64,000 nucleotides of DNA from Terrimonas sp. (GTDB lineage Bacteria > Bacteroidota > Bacteroidia > Chitinophagales > Chitinophagaceae): contig NZ_QCZJ01000005.1 in the NCBI RefSeq assembly GCF_003075435.1, forward strand, positions 186,001 through 250,000. The letters run 5' to 3'. Of this stretch, positions 27,839 through 64,000 are shown piece after piece. Each line of letters begins with the position of its first letter. Position 1 is the stretch's first letter. The translations under genes and the position numbers were made by a program. A model generated the notes under the pieces. The model had not been told where the DNA came from. It did no database searches and saw only the letters and a list, made by a program, of their open reading frames with translations.

Positions 27839-27851
27839 TTAAAATTTACAA

Positions 27852-48600: not shown

Positions 48601-49036
48601 ATATCATAGCTGGATGTTCAACATGTTATGGCAAGGAAGTGGTAGCCGTAGCGTCTATCTTGGTGATAGAATTCAAACCTCACGGATATATCTCTTTCAA
48701 CTGGATTACTGGACCTCTACAAATCAGAATGCTCAATTCCCTCGTCCTATCTCGGTAGCAAACAATGGAAGCAATAATATAGCAACAAGTGATTTTTGGA
48801 TAGTAGATGGAAGGTATATTCGGCTGAAATCCCTTCAAATCAGTTATGATTTCAAGAAAGGCTTACTGAGAAATGTTAAGTTTATTTCCGATTTACGGCT
48901 CACTTTGAGTGGCACAAACCTGCTTACTTTCTCTCCCCTTAATAAGTACTACATGGATGCTGAAACAGGGAGTACAAACAATTACGACTATCCTACTCAA
49001 CGTGTATATTCTGCTTCTATCAATGTAGGGTTTTAA
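45629..49036 (+). CDS. SusC/RagA-type TonB-dependent receptor with STN domain (module 3)
   Basis: 1,135 residues from ATG 45629 (a TTG at 45563 would add 22). The true signal peptide starts about 31 residues in ('MKLTAFLLLSACLQVSA'). STN domain ('LEQVCLEIGKQSGYQFFF'), carboxypeptidase-D-like domain ('GNVLPGATIKVKGRNETA'), plug and SusC signature ('NINDIENISFLKDAGAAGIY' then 'GGGVVLVTTKRG'), and barrel. The C-terminus is '.. VYSASINVGF'. It should import the glycan handled by the enzymes at 51-64 kb. The SusD partner follows within 25 bp. Confidence 0.95.
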   Translation: MELNFPFPFGWPNYVSKLMASTGKLTKALLIMKLTAFLLLSACLQVSAIGFSQQITLKVKKKSLEQVCLEIGKQSGYQFFFNERLLKDAKKISVELENSTIEQALYACFKDQPFNYAIIKKTIVVTKKENVSTDVVMEYPQPPTEISGKIMDENGNVLPGATIKVKGRNETAIADENGRFVIAADKGDRLVFSFVGFEMQEVLIGERNNINIVMKIARQNLDETVIIGYGKTSVRKNTAAVSTLRGESLTNLPLPTLGDGLAGRVPGLIVTSSGGGPGKVPTISIRGGETPVYVIDDIISSEFDFRTLNINDIENISFLKDAGAAGIYGLVAGGGVVLVTTKRGSAGKMSARYDFSYDLSQPTILDKKLTSYEVLLSINQQFANAGQPLPFSEEVLQTYRDQTDPLNYPNTDWQKLTLKKFAPQKRHNISVNAGNKQLQFYGSIGYFDQGTLYKFNTNWLKRYNYRINVTGNFEKIGLKTTLGIYGVSEELRLPNSQYGTGYNFIWGHIQNRGPYESAFADEAQTRYAAGADNPLVEMDPRSGYNRTENRNLNGLLNITWSVPKIGGLEVRVNGNFRQDQSWNKSWSATAPQYSIGSDVPLAQNTPNLSASAGSGYSYTLQALLGYDRTFLKKHTISLLGGYEENYGYSENLSASRSSYLFNIDQLFAGPNAGMQNNGSSSESARAAYLGRLKYDYQSKYFFEGSFRYDGNGNLFPRDKRWGFFPSGSLAWLISKENFFDLLNQKNILNYLKLRASYGTIGQNSNAGNFDYIPGYSINTQAYVIDGQLVPGFGNPGFASPDITWFSQESFNVGVDFTSLNNRLSGTFDYFYNRTTNYLASPSGVSYTDPLGASLPTVNSNGAFRRGGYEFSLRYNGRIGNLEYNAGINFVKFDQLWEVNPNEDSATLKNPYTRTTYQTGYYGSGLHAYGYYQSAQDILMNPTLNNVSGLLAPGDIWYEDTNGDGKIDNADYRRIGSNTFPRINYGFTLDLRYHSWMFNMLWQGSGSRSVYLGDRIQTSRIYLFQLDYWTSTNQNAQFPRPISVANNGSNNIATSDFWIVDGRYIRLKSLQISYDFKKGLLRNVKFISDLRLTLSGTNLLTFSPLNKYYMDAETGSTNNYDYPTQRVYSASINVGF

Positions 49037-49060
49037 TTATTGACTGTAAAAAACATTACA

Positions 49061-50863
49061 ATGAAAACCTCAGTTATGATTTATACTGCATTCACAATTA
49101 ACGTTCTATTGTGTTTGTCTTGTAAAAAAAATATTCTTGATACAGAGCCTTTTGACAAATTTGATGAAAACACTGTATGGAACTCACGTGCTACAGCAGA
49201 TGCATTTATTAATGGAGCTTATGCAAGTATTCTGGGCGTTTATTCAACATCTCCTTCGCATGTGCAGTTCGATGCGTATACCACCAACAGTGTCGTGAAT
49301 GCAGCGGGTAATGGCAGCAATGTAGCACTTGAAACTTTTGACAGGTATTCCGATTTTGGTTTCAATCGCTTCAGCAATATCAGACGTTGCAATCTTGTGT
49401 TAAATAAAGCCCCTTCTTCTGCAGGATTAACAGATTCAGATAAAAAGGAGTTAGTTGCTGAAGCACGTTTCCTGAAGGCTATGGCTTATTTTGATCTTGC
49501 CAGAAAGTTTGGAAGAGTAATGTGGATAGATACATTACTAACACCTGATGATAATTTTAAGCTACCCCTTACTTCAAGCGTGGGAGAAACCTATGACAAG
49601 ATTATACAACTGCTTGATGCTGCGATTCCCGGACTTCCAAAGACTGCCAAAGCGGGGAAAGCCAGTTGTTATGCTGCCCTCGCATTAAAGAGTGAGGTTG
49701 CCTTGCAAGCAGCAGCTTACTCTGGCAATGATGCTTATTATGACAAAGCGATAGCCGCAGCTGATACCATCATTAACAGTGGTAAATATTCAATGGAGAG
49801 TGATTACGAGGGCATGTTCAATGAAACAAAAAAAAATTCACCTGAAATTATTTTTGCTATCTATCGCAGCAAGGTTAATACGAATTGTGAAAACATAAGT
49901 GATTTACAGAACGTAATGCCTAATACTAATAATGGATCTGTGGCGGCTCGTGGGGGTTATCCATTTTTTAAAGTTGATGGTATTTTTCTTGGGTGGACCT
50001 GGTGGGGTGTTTCACAGAACCTGGTAGATGATTATCTGGTAATAGACCAGTCTGATCCCCTGAAAGCCGTGAAGTGGAATGAGACTTCACAATTTACAAA
50101 CAATGTTACCAGAATCAGTCCTACCAGTAGTATAATTGAAGACACAGGTCGCTTAACCGGCAATAGTGATGTAAGCGCTTTAATGTATCAGCATCGTGAC
50201 AAAAGATTTTACGCTAGTGTCGTTTACGATTCATGTACATGGTTTGGTGAATCCATTTCAATGAAAGTGAAAGGTAATTTATATAGGCTCACCAATGGTG
50301 CATTGGGGCCGCACATGAGCCCTTCTAATTATCTCTGGCGTAAAGGAGTTTATAATGTTAGTCCCAGAGTGGCCGCAGGCGTGCCAACAGACTATCATTG
50401 GGTGGTATTTAGATTAGGCCGGGTTTACCTTAATAAGGCTGAGGCTTTATTAAGACAGGGAAAAATAGCTGAAGCAGTTCAGTCTCTTAATGTTACTCGT
50501 ACGTTGCATGGTCAGCTACCACCATCCACTGCCGGTTCCGCTACAGAGGCCTGGATTGACTACAAAAGGGAACGGAGGGTTGACCTTGCTAAAGAATTTG
50601 ATTATTACTGGAGCTTACTCCGTTGGGGAAAATATGGTGGGGATGCTAATCATGGTATAGCCCCTTCTGGAGATATTCCTGAGTTAACTGAACCGGCTAC
50701 TTTTATAGAAATCAATGAAAACCGTACCGGCTATAGCGTGCAGCATCTGGTGTTTCTTAATCAGAATCAAAGAAAATTTACTGCGAACAGACGTTACCTA
50801 TTCCCAATTCCTCAGGGACAAATAGAGCGCAACGAAATGTTAGCTCAGAACGAAAACTGGTAA
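49061..50863 (+). CDS. SusD/RagB family nutrient-binding lipoprotein (module 3)
   Basis: 600 residues from ATG 49061 (a TTG 21 bp upstream is possible). Lipobox 'LLCLSC' near residue 20. SusD blocks: 'LDTEPFDKFDENTVWNSRAT', 'ELVAEARFLKAMAYFDLARK', 'FRLGRVYLNKAEALLRQGKI', 'DYKRERRVDLAKEFDYYWSL' and 'RRYLFPIPQGQIERNEML'. It is longer than the other two SusD proteins here. It forms the ligand-binding lid on the receptor at 45629. A third surface lipoprotein gene follows 22 bp downstream. Confidence 0.95.
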   Translation: MKTSVMIYTAFTINVLLCLSCKKNILDTEPFDKFDENTVWNSRATADAFINGAYASILGVYSTSPSHVQFDAYTTNSVVNAAGNGSNVALETFDRYSDFGFNRFSNIRRCNLVLNKAPSSAGLTDSDKKELVAEARFLKAMAYFDLARKFGRVMWIDTLLTPDDNFKLPLTSSVGETYDKIIQLLDAAIPGLPKTAKAGKASCYAALALKSEVALQAAAYSGNDAYYDKAIAAADTIINSGKYSMESDYEGMFNETKKNSPEIIFAIYRSKVNTNCENISDLQNVMPNTNNGSVAARGGYPFFKVDGIFLGWTWWGVSQNLVDDYLVIDQSDPLKAVKWNETSQFTNNVTRISPTSSIIEDTGRLTGNSDVSALMYQHRDKRFYASVVYDSCTWFGESISMKVKGNLYRLTNGALGPHMSPSNYLWRKGVYNVSPRVAAGVPTDYHWVVFRLGRVYLNKAEALLRQGKIAEAVQSLNVTRTLHGQLPPSTAGSATEAWIDYKRERRVDLAKEFDYYWSLLRWGKYGGDANHGIAPSGDIPELTEPATFIEINENRTGYSVQHLVFLNQNQRKFTANRRYLFPIPQGQIERNEMLAQNENW

Positions 50864-51476: not shown

Positions 51477-53081
51477 ATGATAACTACTTCCATACTCCAT
51501 TCTTTTTTTACAAAGTCTCATTTTTTGAAAACATATTCATTGTTAATTCTCTTTTTAATGAATGCTGATCGGACGTTTTCTCAAAGTGGGAATACGATAA
51601 ACAAAATCTTATTTGTAGATGACTACTGGATTGATACATTAGAAAATTTACAGCGTACGCTTCATCAACCAAAAAAATATTCAAATTATCCGGTACTTGC
51701 AGGCAGTTACCCCTGGGAAAACAACATGGTGCAGACCAGACAGGGCCCGCAATGGATAGACGAAGAAAGAATATGGAAAATCTGGTATAACGCTGCAGGC
51801 AAATTAGGTCCGAAGGGGAGTGGGGGAGTAGAGGAGTATAATTTTGGCATGGCTATATGTCTTGCTACTTCTCGTGATTTAATTAATTGGGAAAAACCTT
51901 TCACAAGAACGATATCTTATTATGGATCTAAAGAAAACAATATAGTGCTTAATGGCTTAATCAGCGGACCCATATATGATAGAAATGAACCTGTTGCAGA
52001 TCGGAGATATAAAGCAATGCTTAACCAGTATAAAAATGGCGTAATGAGTTGGCATCCTATTTTTTCTTCTGACGGGGTTCATTGGAGCAATCCTGTAGAG
52101 GAAGGAGTTAAAGCCAGCGATGAAACTCAATTGCTTTATGATGAAATTTCTAAAGAATATCGATTTTATTGTAAGGGATTTCTGCCGGGTAAAATACGGG
52201 AAAAACTGATTGATGGCAGACCAATTCAACCAAATAATCATCGTTGTGTATATTTATCCACGAGCAAAGATTTCATTAAGTGGACTATACCCGAATTAGT
52301 ATTTCATGCTGATGAACTCGACCAGAAGATCGGAGCTAAACGTAATGTATCTGCCAAAGCTGATTCAAACAGACTTTACCCTACTGCGCAGTACGATAAT
52401 CCTAATCAGTATTATACAGATATCTATAGCATGGCGGTATTTAACTATGAAGGAATGTATATAGGCATGCCATGTATGTTCGACCAAACAGGGAGCCTGC
52501 GTAATAACTCTGCAGGACTATTATATCCTGAACTGGCAACTAGCAGAGATGGGTACAAATGGAACCGGGCTGGAAATAGAGATATCTTTCTATCACTGGG
52601 AAGCAAGGAAGACTTTGACGGCGGAAATATTTTGATGGCAGCGCATCCTATCATTAAAGATGAACAGGTTTGGTTTTACTATTTAGGACAGCCAGAAACA
52701 CACGATGGTGGAATTAGCCGTTTGTCGCGAGTTAATGGTGGCATAGGATTATCCAAATTACGGTTGGATGGCTTTATTTCGATTGATGCCGGAAATAAAC
52801 CTGGATTGCTTATAACTAAAGCTATTGACTTTACCGGTGATAATATCTGGCTAAATCTTGATGCTACCGGCGGAGAAGTTCTGGTGGAGCTACTCGATGC
52901 AAAAAATTTTAAACTTTTAAAAGGTTTCTCATTCGAGAATTGCATCCCTGTATCTTCTGATACAGTAGCTACTAAAGTACATTGGCAGAATCAAAGAGGA
53001 TTACAAAGCATTAAAGGTAAAAAAATAGTATTCCGCATAAAAATGAGCAATGCCAAACTTTATTCTATTCATGTTAAATAA
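51477..53081 (+). CDS. Secreted beta-propeller glycosidase-like protein (GH43/GH32-like)
   Basis: 534 residues with an N-terminal signal ('FLKTYSLLILFLMNADRTFS'). Repeated blade-like segments occur: 'WIDEERIWKIWYNAAG', 'CLATSRDLINWEKPF', 'PIFSSDGVHWSNPVEEG', 'CVYLSTSKDFIKWTIPELVF', 'ELATSRDGYKWNRAGNRDIF', 'QVWFYYLGQPETHDGG'. The S-x-D-x-x-x-W repeats are typical of five-bladed propeller enzymes (GH43, GH32, GH130) and sialidase-like proteins. A C-terminal beta-sandwich ('FTGDNIWLNLDATGGEVLVE') could be a binding domain. Exact family and activity are not clear. It is placed in the module 3 locus just after the surface lipoproteins. Confidence 0.72.
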   Translation: MITTSILHSFFTKSHFLKTYSLLILFLMNADRTFSQSGNTINKILFVDDYWIDTLENLQRTLHQPKKYSNYPVLAGSYPWENNMVQTRQGPQWIDEERIWKIWYNAAGKLGPKGSGGVEEYNFGMAICLATSRDLINWEKPFTRTISYYGSKENNIVLNGLISGPIYDRNEPVADRRYKAMLNQYKNGVMSWHPIFSSDGVHWSNPVEEGVKASDETQLLYDEISKEYRFYCKGFLPGKIREKLIDGRPIQPNNHRCVYLSTSKDFIKWTIPELVFHADELDQKIGAKRNVSAKADSNRLYPTAQYDNPNQYYTDIYSMAVFNYEGMYIGMPCMFDQTGSLRNNSAGLLYPELATSRDGYKWNRAGNRDIFLSLGSKEDFDGGNILMAAHPIIKDEQVWFYYLGQPETHDGGISRLSRVNGGIGLSKLRLDGFISIDAGNKPGLLITKAIDFTGDNIWLNLDATGGEVLVELLDAKNFKLLKGFSFENCIPVSSDTVATKVHWQNQRGLQSIKGKKIVFRIKMSNAKLYSIHVK

Positions 53082-53144: not shown

Positions 53145-56087
53145 ATGAACTACAAATCAATATTAACTTTTCTATTGGTGAATTTGCTGTGGCATTATTC
53201 CGGATATACTCAACAGGCAGAGGTCAGGTACTCCGTTCCTGATGAACCGTGGGACGAAAATCTTGGCAATCACAGAGCCATCATTAATGTTGAACAATCT
53301 TCCGATGCAGTACATATAGATTTTTTGTGGCGCAGGCATGATTTAAATCCTGAAAGCCGGCAATTTATAGTTGTGAATGCTAAAACAGGAGAAAAGATTA
53401 GGAATATTTTCAGGATGCAAATAAACCAGGAAAGATGCGAAGTAGTATTTGGTCCGGTTAACACGGCTGGAACTTACTATTTTTATTATTTACCCTATCA
53501 GCCTGAATTAAAACAATATTCCGCCGGCCCTTACCTTAAACCGGAACCTGGGCCCGATCAGACATGGGTTCAAAAGCATAAGCTTTCCACTGCCAGAAAA
53601 GTTTTAAATAATGTAATGGAAGCTATGGTTAATGAGATTCAGGCAAGAAGCGCATTCCACTCGTTCTATCCAATGGAAGTAACGGCTACGGACATAGAAG
53701 TAAGCACATATCTTCAAAAGTATCGATCAGATTTCCTGATTTTTCCTGAAGATCGCTCATATCCTGTCAGGATGTTGGATGCACTGCCGCTTCGTTGGAT
53801 AAAGCAATCGCCAGGCAGCATATTCAAAGGGATTGCTCAAAAAAATGAATATTATACATTTCAAATTGCGGTATATGCCGCACAAAAAAATCTGCGGGAT
53901 ATAAAGCTGATCTTTTCCGATACAAAAGATAAAGATGGAAACATAATTCCTGCCAGTGCTTTTACCTGTTTCAACACGGATGGAGTAGATACCAGGGGGA
54001 AGTCTTTTACTAAAAAAATAGATCTTTCGAAAGATGGTATTCAGCCATTATGGATAGGTGTGGATATTGCTGCCAATGCCATACCTGGGATTTACGAAGG
54101 CAATATTAGTGTACAAACTCAGAATGCCGGGCAACAAATTATTCCAGTGCACTTACAGATAGAAAATAAATTATTGGCTGATCGTGGCGACGGAGAAACA
54201 TGGAGACACTCCCGGTTACGTTGGCTCAATTCCACCTTAGGAATAGCTGATCAACCTACACTTGATTACGAAAGTTTGAAGTTACATAATGAGTCCATTG
54301 TAGCGACCGGTAAAACAGTTAAATTATCTTCTACAGGATTACCGGCATTGATACAGACTCCGTTGGCAAATAACATTCTTGCAACGCCAATGCGTTTTAC
54401 TGTTGAAGTAAATAATAAACTCCACCTGCTTAAATATAAGCCGCTGGAGTTTGTAGAGCAGAAACCTGGTTCAGTTTCCTGGAGAACAAGCTCTGAAAGT
54501 GATAGCTTTTTTGTGGAGTGCATTGCTAAAATGGAGTTTGATGGAAGAATGCATTATCGGTACAAGTTAACAGCAAAAAAATCCATTTACATCCAGGATA
54601 TCCGGTTGGAGATACCTTTTAAAAAAGAATTTGCTACTTATATGGTGGGCATGGGGCGTATGGGAGGATACACACCTCCCAGTCACATTTCGCGTTGGAT
54701 TAAAACTGAGGATAGTTTCTGGATAGGCAATACATTAGGAGGAGTTCAATGTGAATTAAGAGGCGGACAATATCATGGACCATTATTGAATCTTTACCAA
54801 CCTAATCCTCCGGCCAGTTGGTACAATGGTATGAATGGAGGCTTTCGTGTAGATTCAAACGATAGCGTTGTAACTGCCAGTGCTTATAGTGGTGCCAGAG
54901 ATATGCATGCAGGTCAATCAGTTGAATATGAATTTGCATTACTGATCACACCCGTAAAACCTTTCGATACAAAAAAGCAGTTCTTTAATCGCTATTATCA
55001 CGGCACATTTCCTACGCCGGAAGTTATAGCTAATGGTGGCAACGTGATGAACATCCACCATGCCACTGAGTTCAATCCGTATATCAACTATCCTTTCATT
55101 GCACAAAAGAAAATGAAAGAGATCGTTGAAGAATGGCATAAAAAAAACTGGAAGGTGAAAATTTATTATACTGTAAGGGAATTAAGCAATCATCTAACGG
55201 AAATCTGGGCACTCAGGAGCCTTGGCAACGAAGTATTGGCAGGCGGGCGCGGTGGAGGCTATCAGTGGTTACAGGAACATCTTGTTAACCATTATACTCC
55301 GCAATGGTATACGCACCTGGGCAATGGAGATGCAGATGCGGCGATACTTAATGGAAGCGAATCGCGCTGGTACAATTATTATATCGAAGGACTGAATTGG
55401 CTGATGAAAAATATGGATATTGATGGGCTATATTTAGATGACGTTTCGTTTGATCGTCATATTATTCAAAGAATGCGACGAGTGATGGAAATGACTAAGC
55501 CCGGTTGTATGATTGATCTGCATTCCAATACAGCCTTTTCATTAGGTTCTGCTAATCAAAACATGGAGATATTTCCCTATATCGATAAGACCTGGTTCGG
55601 CGAAGGCTTCAATTTCGATTTGATGCCAGCCGACTTTTGGCTAACAGAAGTAAGCGGCATTCCTTTCGGTATACCCAATGATATTCTAATGCATATGAGT
55701 GTGAATAATAAGAGAGGAATGATATACGCGATGACTCACAGGGGATTTTATCCTATGTGGAAATTGTGGGATGAATTTGGTATTTCTGATTCAAAGATAG
55801 TAGGATATTGGGATGCACATCCGTTGGTGCAAACAAATAATGAACAAATAAAGGCAACTTCATATGTAAAATCAGGGAGTGCGTTGATTGTTTTAGGTAG
55901 CTGGAGCAATCAAAAGGAAAAAGTGAAGCTCCAATTGGATTGGAAAAGGCTTGGGCTTGAACCTAATAAAGTAAAATTGAGATCACCTGAAATTGAAGGC
56001 TATCAGCGAAGCAGAAAGATAAATATGTCGGAGACATTGACTATAGAACCTAAAAATGATCTGATTATTATTATTTCAAAAAGGTAA
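53145..56087 (+). CDS. Large secreted glycoside-hydrolase-like protein (DUF6067)
   Basis: 980 residues, signal peptide 'MNYKSILTFLLVNLLWHYSG'. An N-terminal beta-domain (about 25-130) is followed by a sandwich domain (about 200-345, 'QNEYYTFQIAVYAAQKNL'-type) and a large catalytic-like region from about 460 on: 'MGRMGGYTPPSHISRW', 'WEGFR'-free 'KVKIYYTVRELSNHL', 'MKNMDIDGLYLDDVSFDRHI', 'GCMIDLHSNTAFSLGS', 'KTWFGEGFNFD'. This matches proteins labelled DUF6067 or glycoside hydrolase domain-containing. The acidic residues in 'DGLYLDD' look like a TIM-barrel active site, but no reaction is established. Confidence 0.75.
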   Translation: MNYKSILTFLLVNLLWHYSGYTQQAEVRYSVPDEPWDENLGNHRAIINVEQSSDAVHIDFLWRRHDLNPESRQFIVVNAKTGEKIRNIFRMQINQERCEVVFGPVNTAGTYYFYYLPYQPELKQYSAGPYLKPEPGPDQTWVQKHKLSTARKVLNNVMEAMVNEIQARSAFHSFYPMEVTATDIEVSTYLQKYRSDFLIFPEDRSYPVRMLDALPLRWIKQSPGSIFKGIAQKNEYYTFQIAVYAAQKNLRDIKLIFSDTKDKDGNIIPASAFTCFNTDGVDTRGKSFTKKIDLSKDGIQPLWIGVDIAANAIPGIYEGNISVQTQNAGQQIIPVHLQIENKLLADRGDGETWRHSRLRWLNSTLGIADQPTLDYESLKLHNESIVATGKTVKLSSTGLPALIQTPLANNILATPMRFTVEVNNKLHLLKYKPLEFVEQKPGSVSWRTSSESDSFFVECIAKMEFDGRMHYRYKLTAKKSIYIQDIRLEIPFKKEFATYMVGMGRMGGYTPPSHISRWIKTEDSFWIGNTLGGVQCELRGGQYHGPLLNLYQPNPPASWYNGMNGGFRVDSNDSVVTASAYSGARDMHAGQSVEYEFALLITPVKPFDTKKQFFNRYYHGTFPTPEVIANGGNVMNIHHATEFNPYINYPFIAQKKMKEIVEEWHKKNWKVKIYYTVRELSNHLTEIWALRSLGNEVLAGGRGGGYQWLQEHLVNHYTPQWYTHLGNGDADAAILNGSESRWYNYYIEGLNWLMKNMDIDGLYLDDVSFDRHIIQRMRRVMEMTKPGCMIDLHSNTAFSLGSANQNMEIFPYIDKTWFGEGFNFDLMPADFWLTEVSGIPFGIPNDILMHMSVNNKRGMIYAMTHRGFYPMWKLWDEFGISDSKIVGYWDAHPLVQTNNEQIKATSYVKSGSALIVLGSWSNQKEKVKLQLDWKRLGLEPNKVKLRSPEIEGYQRSRKINMSETLTIEPKNDLIIIISKR

Positions 56088-56266
56088 TATAAAGCGATTG
56101 TGAAGATAGTGAACATAAAGGTGCGAAACGAGCGTGTCTTTAGGGTAATTGTTGTTTAAATCGTTGAGGTTTTATGGCAATAAACAGGCGGGTGTTTCAT
56201 AATATATCGGCGTGGCTAAGAAGTTAAAATAAGTACTATTGTTATTTATAATAAATATGATAAAAT

Positions 56267-57106
56267 ATGGCAATAATAAGATTGATAGGTATGCTTATAC
56301 TAATAAACCTTTGGTATAGCTCCTTAAACAGCATTTTTGGTCAACAGACAGTTTCCAGAAAAATTCCTAAGAAAAATAAATCTATCCAATTGTTTAACGG
56401 AGAGAATCTCGAAGGATGGTATACTTTTTTGAAAAATAAGGGTCGTAATAACGACCCTAAGCAAGTATTCACTGTAAAAAACAAATTACTACACATTTCA
56501 GGAGAGGAGCTGGGATGTTTAACTACTAATGAAGAATACGACAATTATAAACTTTTAGCAGAATATAAATGGACGGGAAAGGCATATCATCCCCGGGAAA
56601 ATAAAGCTATGGATGGTGGAATTTTACTGCATTCAAAAGGAAGTGATGGAGAAGTTGGAGGAATATGGATGCATTCAATCGAATGTCAAATTATTGAGGG
56701 CGGAACCGGAGATCTTCTTGTGGTAGGTGATGGAACAGACAATTTTAAAATTACTGTTACGGCAGGTGCCGAAAAACAGGATAACTGTTATGTATTTGAT
56801 CCTGCTGGAAAACCTGTAACTGTTCTAACGGGAAGGGTAAATTGGTATGGTAGGGATCCGCAATGGAAAGATGTAAAAGGATTTCGTGGAGAAAAGGACA
56901 AGGAAAAATCAATCGGAAAGTGGAATAAAATCGAATGTTTTGTGAGAGACAATACTATAGCTATATACCTTAATGGATCACTTGTAAATTATGCATATAA
57001 TGTAAGTCCAACTTCAGGAAAAATTCAATTACAATCAGAAGGAGCCGAAATAATTTTTAGGAAAATAGAACTAACATCACTTAAGAGTGACTCAAACACG
57101 CCTTAA
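56267..57106 (+). CDS. 3-keto-disaccharide hydrolase domain protein (DUF1080)
   Basis: 279 residues with a signal-like N-terminus ('IGMLILINLWYSSLNSIFGQ'). The DUF1080 concanavalin-like fold is marked by 'LFNGENLEGWYTFLKNKGRN', 'DNYKLLAEYKWTGKAYHPRE', 'DGGILLHSKGSDGEVGGIWM', 'SIECQIIEGGTGDLLVVGDG' and 'KWNKIECFVRDNTIAIYLNG'. Members of this family split 3-keto-glycosides made by Gfo/Idh-type dehydrogenases. That fits the redox enzymes encoded at 58.6-63 kb. It sits about 180 bp after the DUF6067 gene; a terminator-like hairpin follows at 57191. Confidence 0.88.
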   Translation: MAIIRLIGMLILINLWYSSLNSIFGQQTVSRKIPKKNKSIQLFNGENLEGWYTFLKNKGRNNDPKQVFTVKNKLLHISGEELGCLTTNEEYDNYKLLAEYKWTGKAYHPRENKAMDGGILLHSKGSDGEVGGIWMHSIECQIIEGGTGDLLVVGDGTDNFKITVTAGAEKQDNCYVFDPAGKPVTVLTGRVNWYGRDPQWKDVKGFRGEKDKEKSIGKWNKIECFVRDNTIAIYLNGSLVNYAYNVSPTSGKIQLQSEGAEIIFRKIELTSLKSDSNTP

Positions 57107-57416
57107 AATTATCTGGGTAAATATCGGCTGTCCGACAAAATCTGTAGATTTGTCCATATTATAAGTTTCTTAGCAGAACAATTATAATATAAAAGGGTGG
57201 AGTAATTCCACTCTTTAGCTTTTTTATCTCGGACAATAATATTTGGTAATCATAAAAACTATTAATCTTGTTAAGAGCTTGAAGTTTGACATAACGCTTT
57301 TGCACTAATGCCATAAAAGCTGACTCTGTCACGGTAACCTTGATTTGGTTCTCTAACTTTACCTTTTTTATTGCGACAATTTTAAATGTACCCGTTTGGT
57401 TCTTCAATAGTGATAC
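57107..57416. other. Convergent gap between DUF1080 and lacI genes
   Basis: It holds the hairpin at 57191-57226. An 82-codon minus-strand frame (57159-57407, 'VKLENQIKVTVTESAFMALV') starts just after the lacI stop; composition is protein-like but no family is recognised, so it is not called as a gene. Confidence 0.45.
57191..57226 (+). terminator. Terminator after the DUF1080 gene
   Basis: AAAGGGTGGA/TCCACTCTTT stem with one G-T pair and a GTAAT loop, then AGC and a run of six T. Confidence 0.75.
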
Positions 57417-58445
57417 TTAAACACCTTTTCGTACAACGAGCTGAGATAGGAGGTGGGAATTACAGAACTTTTCTTTTATATTTCCTTCCGATTTTGTTTT
57501 TTCAAGAATATCCAATAATATTTCTGTTGCTTTTTTCCCTTGTTCATAAGGAAACTGTTCTACAGACGCTATTGGAGGATGATCCATATAATTGCAGATA
57601 GCCTCATTGGCAAAACTTACAAAACTTATATCAGTATTAATTTTTATTTTTTGCCGTTTACAATAATCTATAGCATCGAGAGCAACATAGTCATTAAAAG
57701 TTATTATTGCTGTTGGTCGCCTTGTAAGTGTAAGAAGCTTTTTTGAAGCAGCTACATTACCTCCAATGGTAAGATCGGAATTAATAATTAATTTTTTATC
57801 AACTCTTATTTTATTTTTTCTCAACGCTTTATGGTAAGCGTTATAACGTTCTTTACTGGCAGAAAAATTTTCAGGTCCGTTAATCAGTCCAATTATCTTA
57901 TGACCCTTCTTAACTAAAAAATTTACTGCTTCTATCATACCATTTTCCAGTTTACAGGCAAAGAAATGGATGTTTTGCATTTCAGGTATTCTGTCAATAA
58001 AGACTACGGGTATATTGTTTTTTTCCAGTAATTTAAAATGTTCATAACTAATAGTGCTTTTGGAAATAGATATGAGCATACCATCCACACGATGATCCTT
58101 CATTTTCTCAATGATACTTTTCTCCCTTTCCTGGTCATCTCTTGATTGTCCAAGCAGTAAAGTATATTTCTTTTGATATGCCACATCTTCAATGCCGCTT
58201 AGTATGGATGCAAAAAAAGTATTGGAAAAGGAAGGTAATATTAAGCCGATCAGATAAGTTTTACGTTGCTTAAAAAAGATCGCTCTGTTGTCAGGCTCAT
58301 AATTCAATTCTGATGCCAACTGTGTTACACGCATTTTAGTCCTCAGCCCAATGCTATGATGGTTACTTAGTGCCCTGGATACCGTAGACTTTGAAATATT
58401 AAGTCGTTTGGCAATATCAATAATGGTGACCTTCCGCGATGTCAT
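57417..58445 (-). CDS. LacI-family transcriptional regulator
   Basis: 342 residues from the methionine at 58443-58445, chosen because it begins the helix-turn-helix ('VTIIDIAKRLNISKSTVSRA', residues 6-25). The hinge region follows ('LASELNYEPDNRA'). The periplasmic-binding-protein-like sensor domain is complete ('YLIGLILPSFSNTFFASILS', 'GHKIIGLINGPENFSASKER', 'ISFVSFANEAICNYMDHPPI', 'ASVEQFPYEQGKKATEILLD'). It is divergent from the SDR gene, and the shared 134-bp region carries two CAACCGGTTG palindromes. It probably represses itself and the catabolic genes to the right until a sugar inducer binds. Confidence 0.93.
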   Translation of the reverse strand: MTSRKVTIIDIAKRLNISKSTVSRALSNHHSIGLRTKMRVTQLASELNYEPDNRAIFFKQRKTYLIGLILPSFSNTFFASILSGIEDVAYQKKYTLLLGQSRDDQEREKSIIEKMKDHRVDGMLISISKSTISYEHFKLLEKNNIPVVFIDRIPEMQNIHFFACKLENGMIEAVNFLVKKGHKIIGLINGPENFSASKERYNAYHKALRKNKIRVDKKLIINSDLTIGGNVAASKKLLTLTRRPTAIITFNDYVALDAIDYCKRQKIKINTDISFVSFANEAICNYMDHPPIASVEQFPYEQGKKATEILLDILEKTKSEGNIKEKFCNSHLLSQLVVRKGV

Positions 58446-58495
58446 AAAACCATATTTCTTTAAAGTTACAGAAAAGAAGATGAAGCGAAATATTA

Positions 58496-58511
58496 AGACA
58501 ACCGGTTGTCT
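58496..58511. promoter_or_regulatory. LacI-type operator O1
   Basis: AGACAACCGGTTGTCT is a perfect 16-bp palindrome with a central CG, the usual form of LacI-family operators. It lies 50 bp upstream of lacI and about 70 bp upstream of the SDR gene. Confidence 0.82.
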
Positions 58512-58525
58512 GAAAAAAATCAGCG

Positions 58526-58538
58526 CAACCGGTTGTCT
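58526..58538. promoter_or_regulatory. LacI-type operator O2
   Basis: CAACCGGTTG followed by TCT repeats the core and right half of O1; the left outer half is changed. Centre-to-centre distance to O1 is 27 bp. Confidence 0.78.
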
Positions 58539-58579
58539 AAAGAAAATATGATTTACAGTTTTTAGTATTGCAATAAATA

Positions 58580-59329
58580 GTGAAATCAAAAAATACTAAT
58601 TATATGGCTGCAATAATAACAGGCGCTGCTTCGGGGTTAGGTATCGCAATTGCAAAAAGACTATCACAAAAAAAAGTGGATCTTGCTTTGTTTGATAAGC
58701 AAGGGGAAAAGCTGTCGGCACTCTCGGGGCAATTGACAGGTAATTGTGAAGTATTTGAAACTGATGTCACAAATGAAAATGAAGTTAAAAAAAATGTAGC
58801 AAGAGTTGTTGAACAGTTTGGCTCAGTGGAAATACTGGTAAACAGTGCCGGGATAACAGGAGCTACAAATATGAAAAGCCATGAAGTAAATACCGGCGAC
58901 CTGCAGTCTGTTTTCGATGTGAATTTTACAGGCAGCTTTTTAATGTCGAAGTACGTGTTGCCCCATATGTTGGCTGATCATTATGGTCGTATTTTACATA
59001 TTGCTTCCATTGCGGGCAAGGAAGGTAATGCAGGCATGCTTGCGTATTCAGCTTCCAAGGCTGCTGTTATTGCCATGGCAAAAGTACAGGGTAAAGAGTA
59101 TGCGGAAACAGGTGTTACTGTTAACGCCCTTGCGCCGGCTGTGATACAAACACCTCTTGTGGACGCAATGCCTGAAACCCAGGTGAAGTACATGACAGAC
59201 AAAATACCAATGAGGAGATGCGGAACTTTGGAAGAGCTGGCGGATATGGTAGCATTCATTGTATCACCTGAAAACAGCTTTACAACCGGATTTACCTTTG
59301 ATTTATCAGGAGGCAGGGCCGTATATTAA
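58580..59329 (+). CDS. SDR-family NAD(P)-dependent oxidoreductase
   Basis: 249 residues from GTG 58580; ATG 58604 would give 241 and cannot be excluded. Rossmann motif 'ITGAASGLGIAIA', 'NSAG' (in 'ILVNSAGITGA'), catalytic Ser in 'HIASIAGKEG', Tyr and Lys in 'AYSASKAA', and 'GGRAVY' at the end. It is a classical FabG-like dehydrogenase/reductase. It is the first gene right of the LacI operators, so it is probably sugar-induced. In this context it may oxidise or reduce a sugar or sugar acid, for example at a 3-keto position; the substrate is inferred only. Confidence 0.92.
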   Translation: MKSKNTNYMAAIITGAASGLGIAIAKRLSQKKVDLALFDKQGEKLSALSGQLTGNCEVFETDVTNENEVKKNVARVVEQFGSVEILVNSAGITGATNMKSHEVNTGDLQSVFDVNFTGSFLMSKYVLPHMLADHYGRILHIASIAGKEGNAGMLAYSASKAAVIAMAKVQGKEYAETGVTVNALAPAVIQTPLVDAMPETQVKYMTDKIPMRRCGTLEELADMVAFIVSPENSFTTGFTFDLSGGRAVY

Positions 59330-59426
59330 CCGTGCAAAAGCAGTATCCGGAGAGGATCATAGTTTTTTTAGTACTTCTATATTATTATAGCAGGATGATT
59401 TTTAGATAGAAAATGTTTTAATATAA

Positions 59427-60446
59427 ATGAATAAAGCCTTGAGAAATAGAAATGATGTAACCAGTATAGGTGTTGTTGGGTTAGGACTGATGGGATGCAG
59501 TATCGCAACCTGTCTTTTAATAGCCGGACACAAAGTAATAGCTGTTGCACCAATACCTGCTGATTTACTACTTGCAAAAAAGCGCATTACCGCGCATCTT
59601 AAAAGATCATTTAAAGAAAAACTTGTTAAAAAACAATCTGACCATTACCTTAAAAATTTAATCATTACAGAAAATTATACTGATCTAAAAAAATGCAAGC
59701 TGGTAATTGAATGTACTATTGAGAACATAGACATAAAAAAGGCTGTTTATAAAAAGATAGAAAATGTTATATCTCCTAATGCGTTAATGACAAGCAATAC
59801 TTCTGCTATTCCTATCAGTTTACTGCAGGAGCAAACCACAAGGCCTGGAAGGTTTTTTGGACTTCATTGGGCAGAGCCATCGCATACCACCCGTTTTCTT
59901 GAAATTATTTGCGGCAATAAAAGCGATATTAAGAAGGGAGAATATTTATATAAGCTCTCCCGCAACTGGGGAAAAGAGCCTACACTTGTTCGCAAAGATA
60001 TACGAGGCTTTGTCACCAACAGGGTTATGTATGCAGCTTACCGCGAAGCCATATCGCTTGTAGAAAACGGCTATGCCACAGTTGAAGATGTTGATCGCGC
60101 CTGTAGAAATAACGCAGGCTACTGGATGACACTGGTTGGTGTCTTCCGCTGGATGGACTTAACAGGCGTACCCGCTTACCACACTGTAATGAAGGACCTG
60201 TTTCCGACCCTTAATAATGGAACAGAGGTTCCGAAGCTGATTGATGATATAGTGAAAAAAGGTGGCAGAGGTGTTGCAAACGCTCATGGGTTTTACAAGT
60301 ATACCGCTGAAGAAGCTAAGCTTTGGGAAGAAACGTTTACCGACTTCAGCTACGATATAAGGGCGCTCGGGCTTAAGTACCCGGAAAATATCGTAAAGAA
60401 AAAAATAGAAGCCAGAAAAAAATTAAAGGCAAAGAAAAGTATATAG
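59427..60446 (+). CDS. 3-hydroxyacyl-CoA dehydrogenase family protein
   Basis: 339 residues. NAD-binding motif 'IGVVGLGLMGCSIA' (residues 14-27), 'LVIECTIENIDIKKAVYKKI', 'MTSNTSAIPISLLQEQT', catalytic His in 'FFGLHWAEPSHTTRFLEII', 'VTNRVMYAAYREAISLVENG' and the C-terminal domain ('GRGVANAHGFYKY'). This is the single-domain HADH/lambda-crystallin type. Besides hydroxyacyl-CoA, relatives oxidise L-gulonate or other hydroxyacids, which would suit a sugar locus. It is 97 bp after the SDR gene and one base before the dipeptidase gene, so co-transcribed. Confidence 0.9.
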   Translation: MNKALRNRNDVTSIGVVGLGLMGCSIATCLLIAGHKVIAVAPIPADLLLAKKRITAHLKRSFKEKLVKKQSDHYLKNLIITENYTDLKKCKLVIECTIENIDIKKAVYKKIENVISPNALMTSNTSAIPISLLQEQTTRPGRFFGLHWAEPSHTTRFLEIICGNKSDIKKGEYLYKLSRNWGKEPTLVRKDIRGFVTNRVMYAAYREAISLVENGYATVEDVDRACRNNAGYWMTLVGVFRWMDLTGVPAYHTVMKDLFPTLNNGTEVPKLIDDIVKKGGRGVANAHGFYKYTAEEAKLWEETFTDFSYDIRALGLKYPENIVKKKIEARKKLKAKKSI

Positions 60447-60447
60447 T

Positions 60448-61521
60448 ATGTTGATCATCGACGCGCATCTTGATCTTTCAATGAATGCCCTTGAATGGAA
60501 CCGGGATCTTAAAAGAACGGCAACCGAGATAAGAGCAAGAGAAAAAAAACTTACTGACAAACCAGACCGTGGTAAAGGCACGGTATCATTGCCTGAATTA
60601 AGAAAAGGGAAAATAGGACTTGTGGTTGCCACACAGATAGCAAGGTTTGTGGCGGAGGACAGTACACTTCCCGGCTGGCATTCACCCGAGCAGGCATGGG
60701 CGCAAACGCAGGGACAGCTCGCCTGGTATAAAGCTATGGAAACGCAGGGAGAGATGGTACAGATCACCAATGCTGAAGAACTGGAAAAGCATATTCAACT
60801 ATGGAATAATGATGCTATTCGCGATGAAAAAAAGCCTGTTGGTTTTATACTTAGTCTTGAAGGCGCTGATTCGCTTGTTAACCTCTCCTATCTTGAAAAA
60901 GCCTGGCAAAATGGTTTGCGTGCGCTCGGACCTGCACATTACGGACCGGGAAGATATTCACCGGGTACAGGCATGGAAGGTCCGCTGACACATGCCGGTG
61001 TGGATTTGCTGAAAAAAATGGAAGAGCTTAATATTATTCTTGATGTCACACATCTTACTGACGAAGCATTTACTCAAGCTGTTGATATCTTCAAAGGACA
61101 TATATGGGCGAGCCATCATAATTGCAGGATATTAGTGCCGCACCAGCGCCAGCTTACTGATGAACAGATAAAGATATTGATAGAGCGGAATGCTGTGATT
61201 GGGGGGGGGCTGGACACATGGATGCTGATGCCCGGCTGGATACGCGGCAAACATGATCCCCAAAAAGAAAATATTACGCTTAATACATTGATTGATCATT
61301 ACGATCATATCTGCCAGATTGCGGGCAACAGCAATCATATTGCCATCGGCAGTGATCTCGATGGTATGTTTGGCCTTGAACAATCACCTTGTGATATAGA
61401 TACCATTGCTGACCTGCAACAATTGAAAGGATTACTTGCAAAACGCGGTTATGCGCAAACCGATATCGAAAATATTTTTCATGGCAACTGGTTAAGATTT
61501 TTACGAAGTACGTGGAAGTAG
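60448..61521 (+). CDS. Membrane dipeptidase-like metallohydrolase (peptidase M19)
   Basis: 357 residues starting one base after the preceding stop. Metal ligands of M19 are visible: 'DAHLD' (H7, D9), 'SLEGAD' (bridging Glu), 'DVTHLTDE', 'ASHHNCR' and 'IGSDLDG'. The family includes renal dipeptidase and enzymes acting on D-amino acid or N-acyl substrates. There is no signal peptide, so cytosolic. Its place inside a sugar operon suggests an amide- or amino-sugar-containing substrate, for example a glycan with amino acids. That is inference. Confidence 0.92.
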   Translation: MLIIDAHLDLSMNALEWNRDLKRTATEIRAREKKLTDKPDRGKGTVSLPELRKGKIGLVVATQIARFVAEDSTLPGWHSPEQAWAQTQGQLAWYKAMETQGEMVQITNAEELEKHIQLWNNDAIRDEKKPVGFILSLEGADSLVNLSYLEKAWQNGLRALGPAHYGPGRYSPGTGMEGPLTHAGVDLLKKMEELNIILDVTHLTDEAFTQAVDIFKGHIWASHHNCRILVPHQRQLTDEQIKILIERNAVIGGGLDTWMLMPGWIRGKHDPQKENITLNTLIDHYDHICQIAGNSNHIAIGSDLDGMFGLEQSPCDIDTIADLQQLKGLLAKRGYAQTDIENIFHGNWLRFLRSTWK

Positions 61522-61648
61522 TGGTAAGTTAAGACTATTGGGTCGCAAACAATTGGGAAAAGTGAAAAGTGAGATTTCACGTTTACCCTTTGTTGTTTCA
61601 TGATTAACAGAGTAGTAGCTACTATATTATTTAATTAAGCATACTAGT

Positions 61649-63010
61649 ATGAACAGAGGAGAATTTATAGCTCATGCTACTATTATCGGGGCCGGAGCTG
61701 CAGTCTTTAAGGACAAAATGATATTAGCGGGAACAAAGAAACAGTCGCCCAAAGCCAGGCTTGCCTTTATTGGTTTAGGCATGAGAGGCAGTGGTTTGTT
61801 GAAAGAAGCGGTGTCACAGGGGCATAGTGAAATTGTAGCCATTAGCGATATTAATGAGATCGCCATCAACAATGCAAAACAGATCATTAAAGATACCGGA
61901 TCAGGAAGCCCGGATTACTATCTAAAAGAAAATGATTTTGAAACGATTGTAACAAGAGATGATGTGGATGCTGTAATTATAGCCACTCCGTGGGAATGGC
62001 ATTTACCGATGTCACTTGCAAGCCTGAAAGCCGGAAAGCATACAGGCTGCGAGGTAATAGCCGGGCTAACGGTACCGGAAATATGGGAGCTGGTAAATTT
62101 GCAGGAAAAAACCAAAACACCGTATATGATGATGGAGAATGTTTGTTACAGGAGAGACGTAATGGCGGTACTAAACATGGCAAGAAAAAATCTGTTCGGT
62201 AACATTACTTATATGGAATGCGGGTATCAGCATGATCTGAGAGAGGTTTTATTTAATGACGGTCAGCATATGACCGGGCATGGTGTTGAATTCGGGGAAA
62301 AAGGAATTAATGAAGCAAGATGGAGAACACCACATTATGTGTCACATAATGGAGATATGTATCCTACACACGGTGCAGGGCCGCTGTCAAATATTTTAAA
62401 TATCACCCGGGGAAACCAGTTTGCACAATTGGTTTCTATGGCCACCCCTGCTATAGGATTACACCAGTATATTGTAGAAAACGGGGGAAATTCGCATCCT
62501 AATACAAAGGTGAAATTCAAGTGCGGGGATGTAGTTACTACCCTTATCAAATGTGTAAATGGGGAAGTAATTAAAATGACATTTGATACTTCTTCTCCGA
62601 GACCCTATTCGTTAGGCTTTCGTGTACAGGGAAGTGAGGGCATCTGGACTGAAGATGCTAAAGGGATATATCTTCAGAAGCATTCACCCCGTGCCCACGA
62701 ATACGAGCCCGCAGCAAAATATTTCAGCGAGCACGACCATCCTTACTGGAAAAAATATGGCGATAAAGCGGAATCTTCAGGTCATGGAGGTATGGACTAT
62801 TTTATAATCAGAGAGTTTGTAGATTGTGTGATCAACAGAAAACCCTTTTTGATGGATGTATATGACGCAGCCATGTGGTCGGTACTGCGACCGCTCTCGG
62901 AAAAATCTATTGCCAAAGGATCACAGCCGGTTTTAATACCTGACTTTACAAGAGGAAAATGGAAAAGAAGAAAGCCTGTATTTGGGATGCAGAATGACTT
63001 TTCCCTCTGA
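61649..63010 (+). CDS. Gfo/Idh/MocA protein, GH109-type NAD-dependent glycosidase
   Basis: 453 residues. A Tat-like or weak export segment ('FIAHATIIGAGAAVF') precedes the dinucleotide-binding start 'RLAFIGLGMRGSGLL'. The middle 'PYMMMENVCYRRDVMAVLNM', 'YQHDLREVLFNDGQH', 'RWRTPHYVSHNGDMYPTHGA' and 'DTSSPRPYSLGFRVQGSEGI' is the block of GH109, the NAD-using alpha-N-acetylgalactosaminidases (blood-group-A type) that work by oxidation at C3, elimination, addition and reduction. Other specificities occur in the family. The DUF1080 gene in the same locus supports redox-type glycoside cleavage. A partial secreted enzyme gene follows 50 bp downstream. Confidence 0.85.
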   Translation: MNRGEFIAHATIIGAGAAVFKDKMILAGTKKQSPKARLAFIGLGMRGSGLLKEAVSQGHSEIVAISDINEIAINNAKQIIKDTGSGSPDYYLKENDFETIVTRDDVDAVIIATPWEWHLPMSLASLKAGKHTGCEVIAGLTVPEIWELVNLQEKTKTPYMMMENVCYRRDVMAVLNMARKNLFGNITYMECGYQHDLREVLFNDGQHMTGHGVEFGEKGINEARWRTPHYVSHNGDMYPTHGAGPLSNILNITRGNQFAQLVSMATPAIGLHQYIVENGGNSHPNTKVKFKCGDVVTTLIKCVNGEVIKMTFDTSSPRPYSLGFRVQGSEGIWTEDAKGIYLQKHSPRAHEYEPAAKYFSEHDHPYWKKYGDKAESSGHGGMDYFIIREFVDCVINRKPFLMDVYDAAMWSVLRPLSEKSIAKGSQPVLIPDFTRGKWKRRKPVFGMQNDFSL

Positions 63011-63060
63011 AATGATCTGCCTGTATGAAGAAGGTTTCAATGAGCTCAAAATTTTTGTTA

Positions 63061-64000
63061 TGAAAAAAATGATTCCTTTTTTAATGATTCTTGGGTTGCT
63101 GTGCTGTAAGTCCATCTTAGGTCAGGAGGAGTCACTGCCTTTAGGAAGTTATCCCCCGGCAATACCAACTGAACATTTGCCAAACAGATTGTATGCCTTT
63201 GTATGGAGGAACTGGAATCTTGTTGACCCTGAAATAATGGGAAAAACAATTGGATGTAATGCGGAAGATATTATTAATATGGCTGCTTCCATGGGACTTC
63301 CTCCGTATAAGCCCAATGTACCAGACTTTGACCGGCGTATATATATAACCGTTATCAGAAGAAACTGGCATCTATTACCCTACGCTCAATTGCTTATACT
63401 GCTTAACATGAACAGTAATGAACTGTCCGTGGCTTTAAAGGAAGATGATGCTTTGTTTATCAAGCTCGGCAATCTAAAACCCCAGATTGAGGAACTTAAG
63501 TATACTGCCCCAGATAAAAATGCGATCAGAAGTGCGTCAAAAATAAAGCGTATTGCTCAACAATATTTTCGGGGGCAAAATACTTTTCCTCCATTTCAAT
63601 TTATTGAAGATTTAAGGGATGCTTCCGGAAAAAAGAACACAAATGTTTATCCATCGGATAAAGAGAAAAGCCCTAGAATCGTTTATTCCTATTTTGGTAT
63701 TTATGGTGATCCGCTTTCTGACACCTTGCAGGATTTGTACCCAGACGGATTGATGGAAAAACTATCTCAAAGTGGAGTTAATGGAATATGGATGCACGTG
63801 GTTTTGAATCAAATTGCTCCGGGTGGTACTTTATTTCCTGAATTTGGGGAGGGTCATGCATTACGTATTCAAAATCTAAACAGGATTGTTGAGCGAGCAA
63901 AACGATACGGTATAGATATTTATCTATACATTAATGAGCCGAGAGCAATGGATTCTACCTTTTTTATTAACAGAGCCCCAATGAGAGGCACAAGAGAAGG
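63061..64000 (+). CDS. Secreted barrel protein with 'VWRNW' N-terminal domain, partial
   Basis: The frame is open from ATG 63061 to the window edge (313 codons seen); the 3' end is missing. A signal peptide ('MKKMIPFLMILGLLCCKSIL') is followed by a compact domain of about 130 residues: 'RLYAFVWRNWNLVDPEIMGK', 'NMAASMGLPPYKPN', 'YITVIRRNWHLLPYAQLLIL', 'LKEDDALFIKLGNLKPQIEE'. From about residue 200 ('IVYSYFGIYGDPLSD', 'GVNGIWMHVVLNQIAP', 'IVERAKRYGIDIYLYINEPR') it looks like the start of a TIM barrel. I recall this combination in uncharacterised proteins of several phyla but know no function. A glycoside hydrolase is the best guess. Confidence 0.75.

Follow-up and report, generated by a model that had tools for sequence, protein, structure and literature searches.

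A stretch of 64,000 nucleotides from Terrimonas sp. (contig NZ_QCZJ01000005.1, positions 186,001 to 250,000; hereafter the window, to whose positions all coordinates refer) was analysed around six genes encoding a DUF1080 protein, a LacI-family repressor, an SDR dehydrogenase, a 3-hydroxyacyl-CoA-dehydrogenase-fold oxidoreductase (HADH), an M19 amidohydrolase and a GH109 protein. An earlier sequence-only reading had listed these genes as one redox-type glycoside pathway; all six were present where it had placed them, and Pfam confirmed their types (Table 1). The sequence makes it nearly certain that two neighbouring units meet here: a sigma factor/FecR/SusCD polysaccharide utilization locus (PUL) ending with the DUF1080 gene, and a separate LacI-controlled PUL starting at 58604. 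The genes of the second unit point to the probable degradation of an amino sugar, in which oxidation is combined with amide cleavage. Loci (L), genomes (G) and contigs (C) are numbered within the sampled relatives, and the Terrimonas genome itself is G000.

Table 1 Genes and sites of the two units and their junction, in window coordinates.
Feature	Position	Strand	Evidence or remark
LacI-family repressor	57417-58445	-	PF00356, PF13377, PF00532; mechanical open reading frame to 58589
Operator 1, ACAACCGGTTGT	58498-58509		perfect palindrome; LacI-SDR gap
Operator 2, GCAACCGGTTGT	58525-58536		one-mismatch copy of operator 1; 27 bp from operator 1
SDR dehydrogenase	58604-59329	+	PF13561, PF00106; mechanical open reading frame from 58580
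HADH-like oxidoreductase	59427-60446	+	PF02737 140.8 bits, PF00725 69.4 bits
M19 'membrane dipeptidase' family amidohydrolase	60448-61521	+	160.3 bits; 1 bp after HADH
GH109 (alpha-N-acetylgalactosaminidase family)	61649-63010	+	PF21252 (GH109_C) 265.8 bits, cut-off 27
760-aa protein	63060-64000, runs off window	+	leader peptide read by eye
Terminator-like hairpin serving both strands	57192-57216		between DUF1080 and LacI genes
DUF1080/3keto-disac_hyd protein	56267-57106	+	PF06439 94.8 bits, cut-off 26.8; last gene of upstream PUL
PF19543 protein (GH123_N / DUF6067)	53145-56087	+	upstream PUL; 1206.7 bits; 91% orthologue on G028:C38
534-aa protein	51477-53081	+	upstream PUL; no Pfam match
SusC-like TonB-plug protein	45563-49036	+	upstream PUL
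SusD	49040-50863	+	upstream PUL
Sigma-70-family factor and FecR regulator	43554-45464	+	upstream PUL

Gene content of the LacI unit

The repressor gene is followed on the opposite strand by SDR, HADH, M19, GH109 and a 760-aa protein, and the unit continues past 63010 and past the window end with, in that order, an MFS carrier (closest to the GluP/FucP models of NCBIfam, though under their cut-offs), an isomerase-like protein of 454 aa, a PfkB kinase (PF00294, 86.4 bits), a class-III aminotransferase and a DhnA/DeoC-type aldolase (DeoC/LacD-type, nearest MJ0400 and LsrF). Further on lie a sulfatase, a weak ceramidase-like match (23.2 bits, cut-off 32.1), an alpha/beta hydrolase, SusC and SusD. 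No match to an APH-family N-acetylhexosamine (HexNAc) 1-kinase was found among the LacI-unit proteins scanned. This order is kept in G028 (L034 and L066), where an extra gene set including SusC/SusD-like genes is inserted before the last SusCD, and in G123 (L035 and L067, L069); L070 shows the same order up to the contig end, without GH109. Matches to PfkB and the aldolase were confined to the near relatives L034, L035, L069 and L070. The gene content supports the sequence-only reading in that oxidoreductases form a core part of the unit.

The open reading frame (ORF) of the repressor (57417-58589) spans the operators; the ATG at 58445 is its likely start, and the orthologues in L070 and L047 begin at the corresponding methionine. 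For the SDR gene the likely start is the ATG at 58604. None of the six proteins reached a curated NCBIfam cut-off among the matches listed (for the SDR, 25 of 230 matches), and the DUF1080 and M19 proteins had no NCBIfam match at all. The 760-aa protein was found in 5 distinct loci, this one included; its predicted structure (first row of 750 aa in a three-row alignment) had a mean pLDDT of 40.9, too poor for a fold search, and the sole PDB sequence match of a 5-row profile, at E 0.81, was taken as chance.

Two units meet between the DUF1080 and LacI genes

The DUF1080 (+) and LacI (-) genes converge on a terminator-like hairpin that has T-rich tails on both strands, and the 134-nt stretch containing it folds with a z-score of -4.03. 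A terminator between the M19 and GH109 genes was also considered, and was rejected with a folding z of only -1.59. In G028, of the same genus, the genes FecR-SusC-SusD-170aa-534aa-PF19543-DUF1080 lie on contig C38, where the block ends at DUF1080 (89-99% identity to the upstream PUL proteins; 69% for FecR, which is cut by the fetched stretch), and LacI-SDR-HADH-M19-GH109-760aa lie on a different contig, C28. At the DNA level, window positions 56001-57084 correspond to C38 (94%) and 57435-64000 to C28 (87%), the switch falling within 57084-57435. The LacI unit of G123 is likewise preceded by other neighbours than here. Because synteny differs in G028 and G123, the adjacency of DUF1080 and LacI is the junction of two blocks.

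The arrangement of all six genes as one set around a single LacI regulator is split by the hairpin, the convergent orientation, the operator placement and the G028 synteny, and the same four features place DUF1080, as read from the sequence, outside the transcription unit of SDR, HADH and GH109. Separate regulation, which the sequence-only reading had itself named as incompatible with its pathway, is what terminator, operator and synteny point to. What had been a vague 'redox glycan' interpretation becomes in this way an operon with defined limits and an operator to itself.

A tandem operator ahead of the SDR gene

The two sites that match ACAACCGGTTGT with no more than one mismatch both lie in the LacI-SDR gap; none lies on the DUF1080 side, and a single regulon for both units was discarded on this ground. 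In the whole genome the exact 12-mer occurs in this gap and at one further place, inside the ORF L183:8857-9411 (G000:C5:110873), which was read by eye as ribosomal-protein-like (L6). Since it falls within such an ORF, this second occurrence is probably due to chance, and as it is the sole other exact operator, the idea that LacI controls further genes of this genome was also rejected.

A search of 394 family genomes for the pattern RCAACCGGTTGY twice, with a spacer of 14-16, found the tandem operator in seven (G000, G028, G123, G002, G059, G226 and G301), always ahead of this SDR gene. The 27-bp spacing was the same in every tandem site checked: L034 (G028), L069 (G123), L076 (G002), L039/L184 (G059), L193 (G226) and L194 (G301). 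The LacI relative of G059, at a contig end, is just a 34% match. Single operator sites precede the SDR gene in L045, L070 and L079.

A second tandem pair was seen in one genus (G002, G226, G301) ahead of a beta-helix protein next to LacI (L047:13557-16082, L193:11063-13498, L194:2246-4531); the G002 protein (L047 copy, the sole one run on Pfam) carries a secretion tail. With its own operator pair, this protein could be a candidate for revealing the substrate.

The GH109 protein keeps its catalytic residues

The GH109 protein matched the alpha-N-acetylgalactosaminidase 2IXA (phmmer against the PDB, E 4.5e-135) and 6T2B (E 7.5e-74), and its Rossmann half matched PF01408 (30.5 bits, cut-off 24), with GLGMRG at 42. 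The catalytic residues of AmGH109A, given as Tyr226, His259 and His404 in PMC10755693, correspond in the 6T2B alignment to Y193, H241 and H379 of the window protein, all conserved (the 6T2B chain numbers 201, 234 and 379 are the AmGH109A numbers minus a constant 25, by hand count). The leader MNRGEFI..., read by eye, looks like a twin-arginine (Tat) signal short of one arginine; relatives have MQRRKF... and MKRRTF... at this place. The genome holds 3 GH109_C matches in 6.18 Mb, and the chance expectation of a GH109 gene per 16-kb stretch is below 1%. The amino-sugar target put forward by the sequence-only reading is strengthened by the conserved catalytic residues and by the presence of GH109 near 7 of 17 HADH relatives (one only 35% similar).

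As described in PMC10755693, GH109 enzymes oxidise C3 and then re-reduce it inside one active site, the net reaction being hydrolysis. Because of this re-reduction within the same active site, GH109 supplies no 3-keto sugar to DUF1080. The notion that both proteins use oxidation in place of hydrolysis lacks support on two counts: GH109 is hydrolytic in outcome, with no 3-keto product, and DUF1080 belongs to the other unit. The redox link between them is superficial.

DUF1080 and the 3-keto-glycoside pathway

The genome contains 21 PF06439 matches, among which the window DUF1080 ranks 18th by score, so its presence nearby carries little weight. No glycoside 3-dehydrogenase (BT2158-type or LacABC) was recognised among the upstream-PUL proteins scanned, of which the 534-aa member had no match of any kind. 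In the whole genome BT_2158_fam had 39 matches, 0 of them above cut-off (the highest score was 506.5 of 750, and the GH109 gene scored 40.4), and LacC-like PF13618 occurs at 4 places, all on other contigs.

The view of the sequence-only reading, that a single C3-oxidative glycoside pathway joins DUF1080, SDR, HADH and GH109, can draw on their adjacency in this genome, on a Gfo/Idh-like gene found beside HADH in L046, L078, L090, L110 and L117, and on DUF1080 proteins of the same subfamily (51-57%) beside HADH in L078 (also with the Gfo/Idh-like gene, RidA and M19) and L190 (also with DUF7133, a sulfatase and a ceramidase-like gene). The DUF1080-HADH pairing of L078 and L190, seen at 2 of 33 further HADH loci (>=60% identity, duplicates removed), may reflect a functional tie in those loci and argues against a full separation of the two proteins. 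The 34-locus set used here (from which L035, L047 and L184 were removed because they duplicate L069, L076 and L039) is partly biased toward M19, loci L069-L148 having come from an M19 search. In the opposite direction, none of 7 other DUF1080 relatives (195 family genomes) had an HADH, M19 or GH109 match in the fetched stretch, three of these stretches (L204, L205, L207) being cut by contig ends; L203 had only weak SDR (25%) and RidA (30%) matches. With the terminator, operator and synteny setting DUF1080 apart, the GH109 chemistry self-contained and the scan of the upstream PUL revealing no glycoside 3-dehydrogenase, such a pathway is very unlikely.

The SDR-HADH-M19 module

The HADH protein carries 3HCDH_N and 3HCDH domains, and S123, H147, E159 and N198, which we take to be the Ser/His/Glu/Asn catalytic set of the 3HCDH fold, are invariant in 17 of 17 relatives. 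Its best PDB match by sequence was 4OM8, a pyridine-acid dehydrogenase (3.7e-41 versus 9.1e-33 for the next). In the M19 protein H7, D9, E138, H202, H223 and D303, presumably the metal ligands, and H164 and R234, putatively carboxylate-binding by analogy with DPEP1, are invariant in 11 of 11 sequences. Since both sets of residues are kept, an amide beside a carboxylate is the expected M19 substrate; N-acetylhexosaminate would have this arrangement.

HADH matches at E <= 1e-60 were found in 27 of 195 sampled family genomes, and at E <= 1e-135 in 6 of 395 phylum-sample genomes, this one included. Neighbourhoods of 8 kb were counted at 17 full-length HADH places of >=70% identity (two partial places at contig edges, G043 and G142, and everything below 70% were excluded): SDR was present at 13, GH109 at 7, a LacI relative at 6 (one 34%), M19 at 5 and DUF1080 at 1, the window itself; 3 places had none of the markers. 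Those that have GH109 are not independent of one another, being drawn from three genera and from the second copy in this genome. That second HADH-M19 pair lies on contig C21 (L033, 8128-11431; HADH 91%, DNA 84% over 2,065 bp); it has neither SDR nor operator and stands beside ceramidase-like genes of 47.1 and 33 bits.

The module recurs in several other settings. Three genomes of one genus have SDR-FAH hydrolase-RidA-HADH-M19-GH109-SusC, and G753 (L192) has HADH-SDR-D-serine-dehydratase-like-M19 on one strand. A pyrroloquinoline quinone (PQQ) dehydrogenase (PF01011), HADH, M19 and SusCD occur together in L191 (G635) and in Spirosoma fluviale (L115), which, as close relatives, count as one lineage. 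The L191 families were scanned directly and L115 was matched to L191 (72-89%; MFS 89%). Sugar-acid genes of L191 encode the 2-keto-3-deoxygalactonokinase DgoK (PF05035, 206.6 bits) and a KDPG/KDPGal (2-keto-3-deoxy-6-phosphogluconate/-galactonate) aldolase (TIGR01182, 176.7, above cut-off); the nearest model to its MFS protein was a galactonate transporter (239 of 395 bits). In a more distant HADH group (40-60%, 18 places) RidA was found at 15, a glutamate-1-semialdehyde (GSA)-aminomutase-like aminotransferase at 12 and M19 at 10, with creatininase, an MR_MLE dehydratase, a DHDPS-type aldolase and SDR at 5. A GH20 gene lies at L091, in keeping with an amino sugar. The chemistry common to these settings suggests an acid with a beta-hydroxy group and an alpha-nitrogen; 2-amino aldonates fit, and so do D-Ser/D-Thr derivatives. 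The SDR-HADH(-M19) module is conserved and lies next to GH109 in three genera; by sequence comparison it may serve to degrade a beta-hydroxy-alpha-amino (sugar) acid, N-acetylhexosaminate being one candidate.

Two minor features of these loci were recorded. The recurrent Gfo/Idh-like genes are 72-80% alike to the L078 copy and resemble the Pfam-confirmed Gfo/Idh protein of L192 (E 3e-10). In RidA-HADH-AT3-HADH2-M19 clusters (L134:9016-9993, L139:8868-9821) the second HADH paralogue has its catalytic His changed to Asn and an altered NAD motif, and is possibly a non-catalytic partner subunit.

Proposed pathway and alternative explanations

From the gene content and order, the operator sequence and the conserved residues we infer a mechanism whose substrates, enzyme activities, reaction order and repressor binding would be as follows. 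The LacI repressor would occupy the tandem ACAACCGGTTGT operators and be released upon binding the sugar or its breakdown product. Outside the cytoplasm, the sulfatase, the ceramidase-like protein, the 760-aa protein and GH109 would trim a glycan or glycopeptide; GH109 would free a terminal HexNAc, most likely N-acetylgalactosamine (GalNAc), by redox-neutral, NAD-retaining hydrolysis, and the MFS carrier would take it up. In the cytoplasm the SDR would oxidise the sugar, most likely at C1, to an N-acyl-2-amino aldonate, chemically an N-acyl alpha-amino acid; M19 would cut the amide beside its carboxylate, and HADH would oxidise the C3 hydroxyl, as L-gulonate 3-dehydrogenase does on its aldonate. 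The class-III aminotransferase, isomerase-like protein, PfkB kinase and DhnA-type aldolase would complete the route in this genus, and in other genomes the same core would be joined to DgoK/Eda, to FAH hydrolase and RidA, or to a D-serine-dehydratase-like enzyme. We give this mechanism as a whole a probability of roughly 0.4. Its most specific form, an oxidative N-acetylhexosamine route of Bacteroidota passing through N-acetylhexosaminate (an N-acyl D-amino acid), with M19 as N-deacetylase, C3 oxidation by a 3HCDH-fold enzyme and the downstream ends interchangeable, is doubtful.

Several observations weigh against the amino-sugar mechanism. SDR is missing at 4 of the 17 HADH places, GH109 at 10 and M19 at 12. 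The isomerase-like protein had no Pfam match, and no PDB match to E 0.1. No ammonia-lyase or other step removing the amino group was recognised beside HADH in L115/L191, a gap that counts because the amino group must be removed in any route with DgoK/Eda at its end. The best 50 rows of a fold comparison with the predicted HADH model (mean pLDDT 70.3) lean to CoA enzymes, which take the top rows (Z 29.1 for 4KUG), and do not include 4OM8; L-gulonate 3-dehydrogenase (3ADO) ranked 27 (Z 27.1, rmsd 3.2, 212 aligned). A desaturase-like gene (named by eye) adjoins the HADH-M19 pair on C21, has a relative of 63% identity preceding SDR-HADH-M19 in L071 (6926-11083), and points to a lipid rather than a sugar role for that second copy. 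Finally, 63 of 80 named M19 loci have no HADH in the fetched flanks, and for this reason M19 may simply handle D-amino-acid peptides.

The fold comparison and the desaturase-like neighbours in L033 and L071 would suit catabolism of lipids or N-acyl amino acids. HADH would then be a genuine 3-hydroxyacyl dehydrogenase, and real ceramidases would be encoded by the ceramidase-like genes, weak in the window unit and also present beside the second HADH-M19 pair. The 50 rows are all 3HCDH-fold enzymes, mostly CoA-dependent, and do not discriminate the substrate; the best match by sequence, 4OM8, is by name no CoA enzyme, and the unit contains GH109, a sulfatase, a sugar-type MFS carrier and SusCD, with no acyl-CoA family among the unit proteins scanned. 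This explanation has only a very slim chance of being right.

The M19 survey bears on another explanation, in which SDR, HADH and M19 handle the amino-acid side: GH109 would free GalNAc from Ser/Thr glycopeptides, and M19 and HADH would degrade peptides of hydroxy amino acids, perhaps D-Ser/D-Thr. The best 80 of at least 595 named M19 relatives were examined in their fetched flanks, one representative per new cluster being run against Pfam. A D-serine-dehydratase/alanine-racemase-type cluster gene was found at 42, a YjgF/RidA-like gene at 41 and a GntP-type gene at 27, compatible with amino-acid catabolism; HADH was found at 17, SDR at 8 and GH109 at 3, all counts being lower bounds because several contigs are short. 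It also fits that BT4243-GH109 is described in PMC11992087 as releasing GalNAc from GalNAc-Ser. The window unit, however, has an isomerase-like protein, PfkB, an aldolase and a FucP/GluP-like MFS carrier and no D-serine-dehydratase-like gene, and HADH is accompanied by SDR at 13 of 17 places against 5 for M19. We consider the amino-acid explanation unlikely.

The kinase and aldolase invite two further explanations. In an ordinary phosphorylative use of HexNAc, PfkB and the DeoC/LacD-type aldolase would carry the pathway, and SDR, HADH and M19 would be side functions for by-products; but SDR and HADH are the first genes after the operator and recur together more widely than any other pair (13 of 17), the PfkB and aldolase matches came only from near relatives, and the kinase is of PfkB type, unlike the APH-type GalNAc kinase BT4240 of PMC11992087, which leaves this route quite unlikely. 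In an Embden-Meyerhof-like route for a 6-modified hexose, comparable to sulfoglycolysis, the isomerase, PfkB and the DeoC/LacD-type aldolase would split the sugar, and SDR, HADH and the aminotransferase would act on the C3 fragment. The gene types and their order (isomerase-like, PfkB, aminotransferase, DeoC) agree with it, as does a weak match of the isomerase-like protein to the sulfoquinovose isomerase SftI (NF048012); this match reached 46.2 bits against a cut-off of 700, far short of an equivalog, the aldolase is nearest to MJ0400 and LsrF, and an isomerase-like gene lies within 8 kb at only 4 of the 34 HADH loci. We regard this route as highly improbable.

Should the module act on amino-sugar acids, functions would follow for proteins that family searches assign no further than to the FabG-like, 3-hydroxyacyl-CoA-dehydrogenase-like and dipeptidase families, and environmental Bacteroidota would have a way to begin HexNAc use without phosphorylation. 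Variants are carried by the named strains Pseudoflavitalea rhizosphaerae KACC 18655 (L076) and Spirosoma fluviale DSM 29961 (L115).

Relation to known systems

The closest parallel is the GH109 PUL BT4240-4250 of Bacteroides thetaiotaomicron which, as presented in PMC11992087, shares GH109 in a SusCD locus, an MFS carrier, a sugar kinase and GalNAc catabolism. Its kinase is described there as an APH-type GalNAc 1-kinase, whereas the window unit has PfkB followed by an aldolase and is headed by two dehydrogenases and the M19 amidase; the word 'aldolase' is absent from the main text of PMC11992087, and no HADH or M19 turned up there, no search having been aimed at them. With the 3-keto-disaccharide route (BT2157; Caulobacter LacABC and CCNA_01705), as outlined in PMC9007349, the window shares a nearby DUF1080 domain; unlike that route, no glycoside 3-dehydrogenase was recognised in the window DUF1080 unit, and DUF1080 lies outside the LacI unit.

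For the proposed HADH step, the vertebrate glucuronate route (L-gulonate 3-dehydrogenase, then a decarboxylase), as given in PMC12435205, offers by analogy a precedent of a 3HCDH-fold enzyme oxidising C3 of an aldonate; in contrast to it, no decarboxylase gene was identified in the window unit, and CoA enzymes outrank 3ADO by fold. The oxidative glucosamine route predicted for haloarchaea in PMC12343721, from glucosaminate to KDPG, shares the idea of C1 oxidation to an amino aldonate before deamination. Its enzymes differ, being a glucose dehydrogenase and a glucosaminate-6-phosphate ammonia-lyase, and neither 'dipeptidase' nor '3-hydroxyacyl-CoA' appears in the main text of that paper. No earlier description of an SDR-HADH-M19 module was found among the literature matches listed, which is weak evidence, as subscription papers fell mostly outside the search.

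Upstream PUL and other features of the window

Two neighbours on the DUF1080 side had been named by the sequence-only reading. The 'DUF6067' protein was identified correctly, the family PF19543 now bearing the name GH123_N; for the 'beta-propeller' protein the 534-aa gene exists, and the fold found no Pfam match at E 0.001. The upstream PUL also holds a DUF5018-related protein (Pfam). Elsewhere in the window, 19313-29117 is another PUL-like cluster of unusual content: after a SusC-like protein (similar to that at 45563-49036) and SusD come a DAO-type FAD oxidase, two proteins of the alkaline-phosphatase superfamily and DUF2264. At 37992-39735 and 40732-42475 a 442-aa ORF (with an RHS core domain in the first copy) and a 141-aa ORF each occur twice (99.3% and 98.6% identical), which has the look of a duplicated RHS C-terminal cassette together with a partner gene downstream of it.

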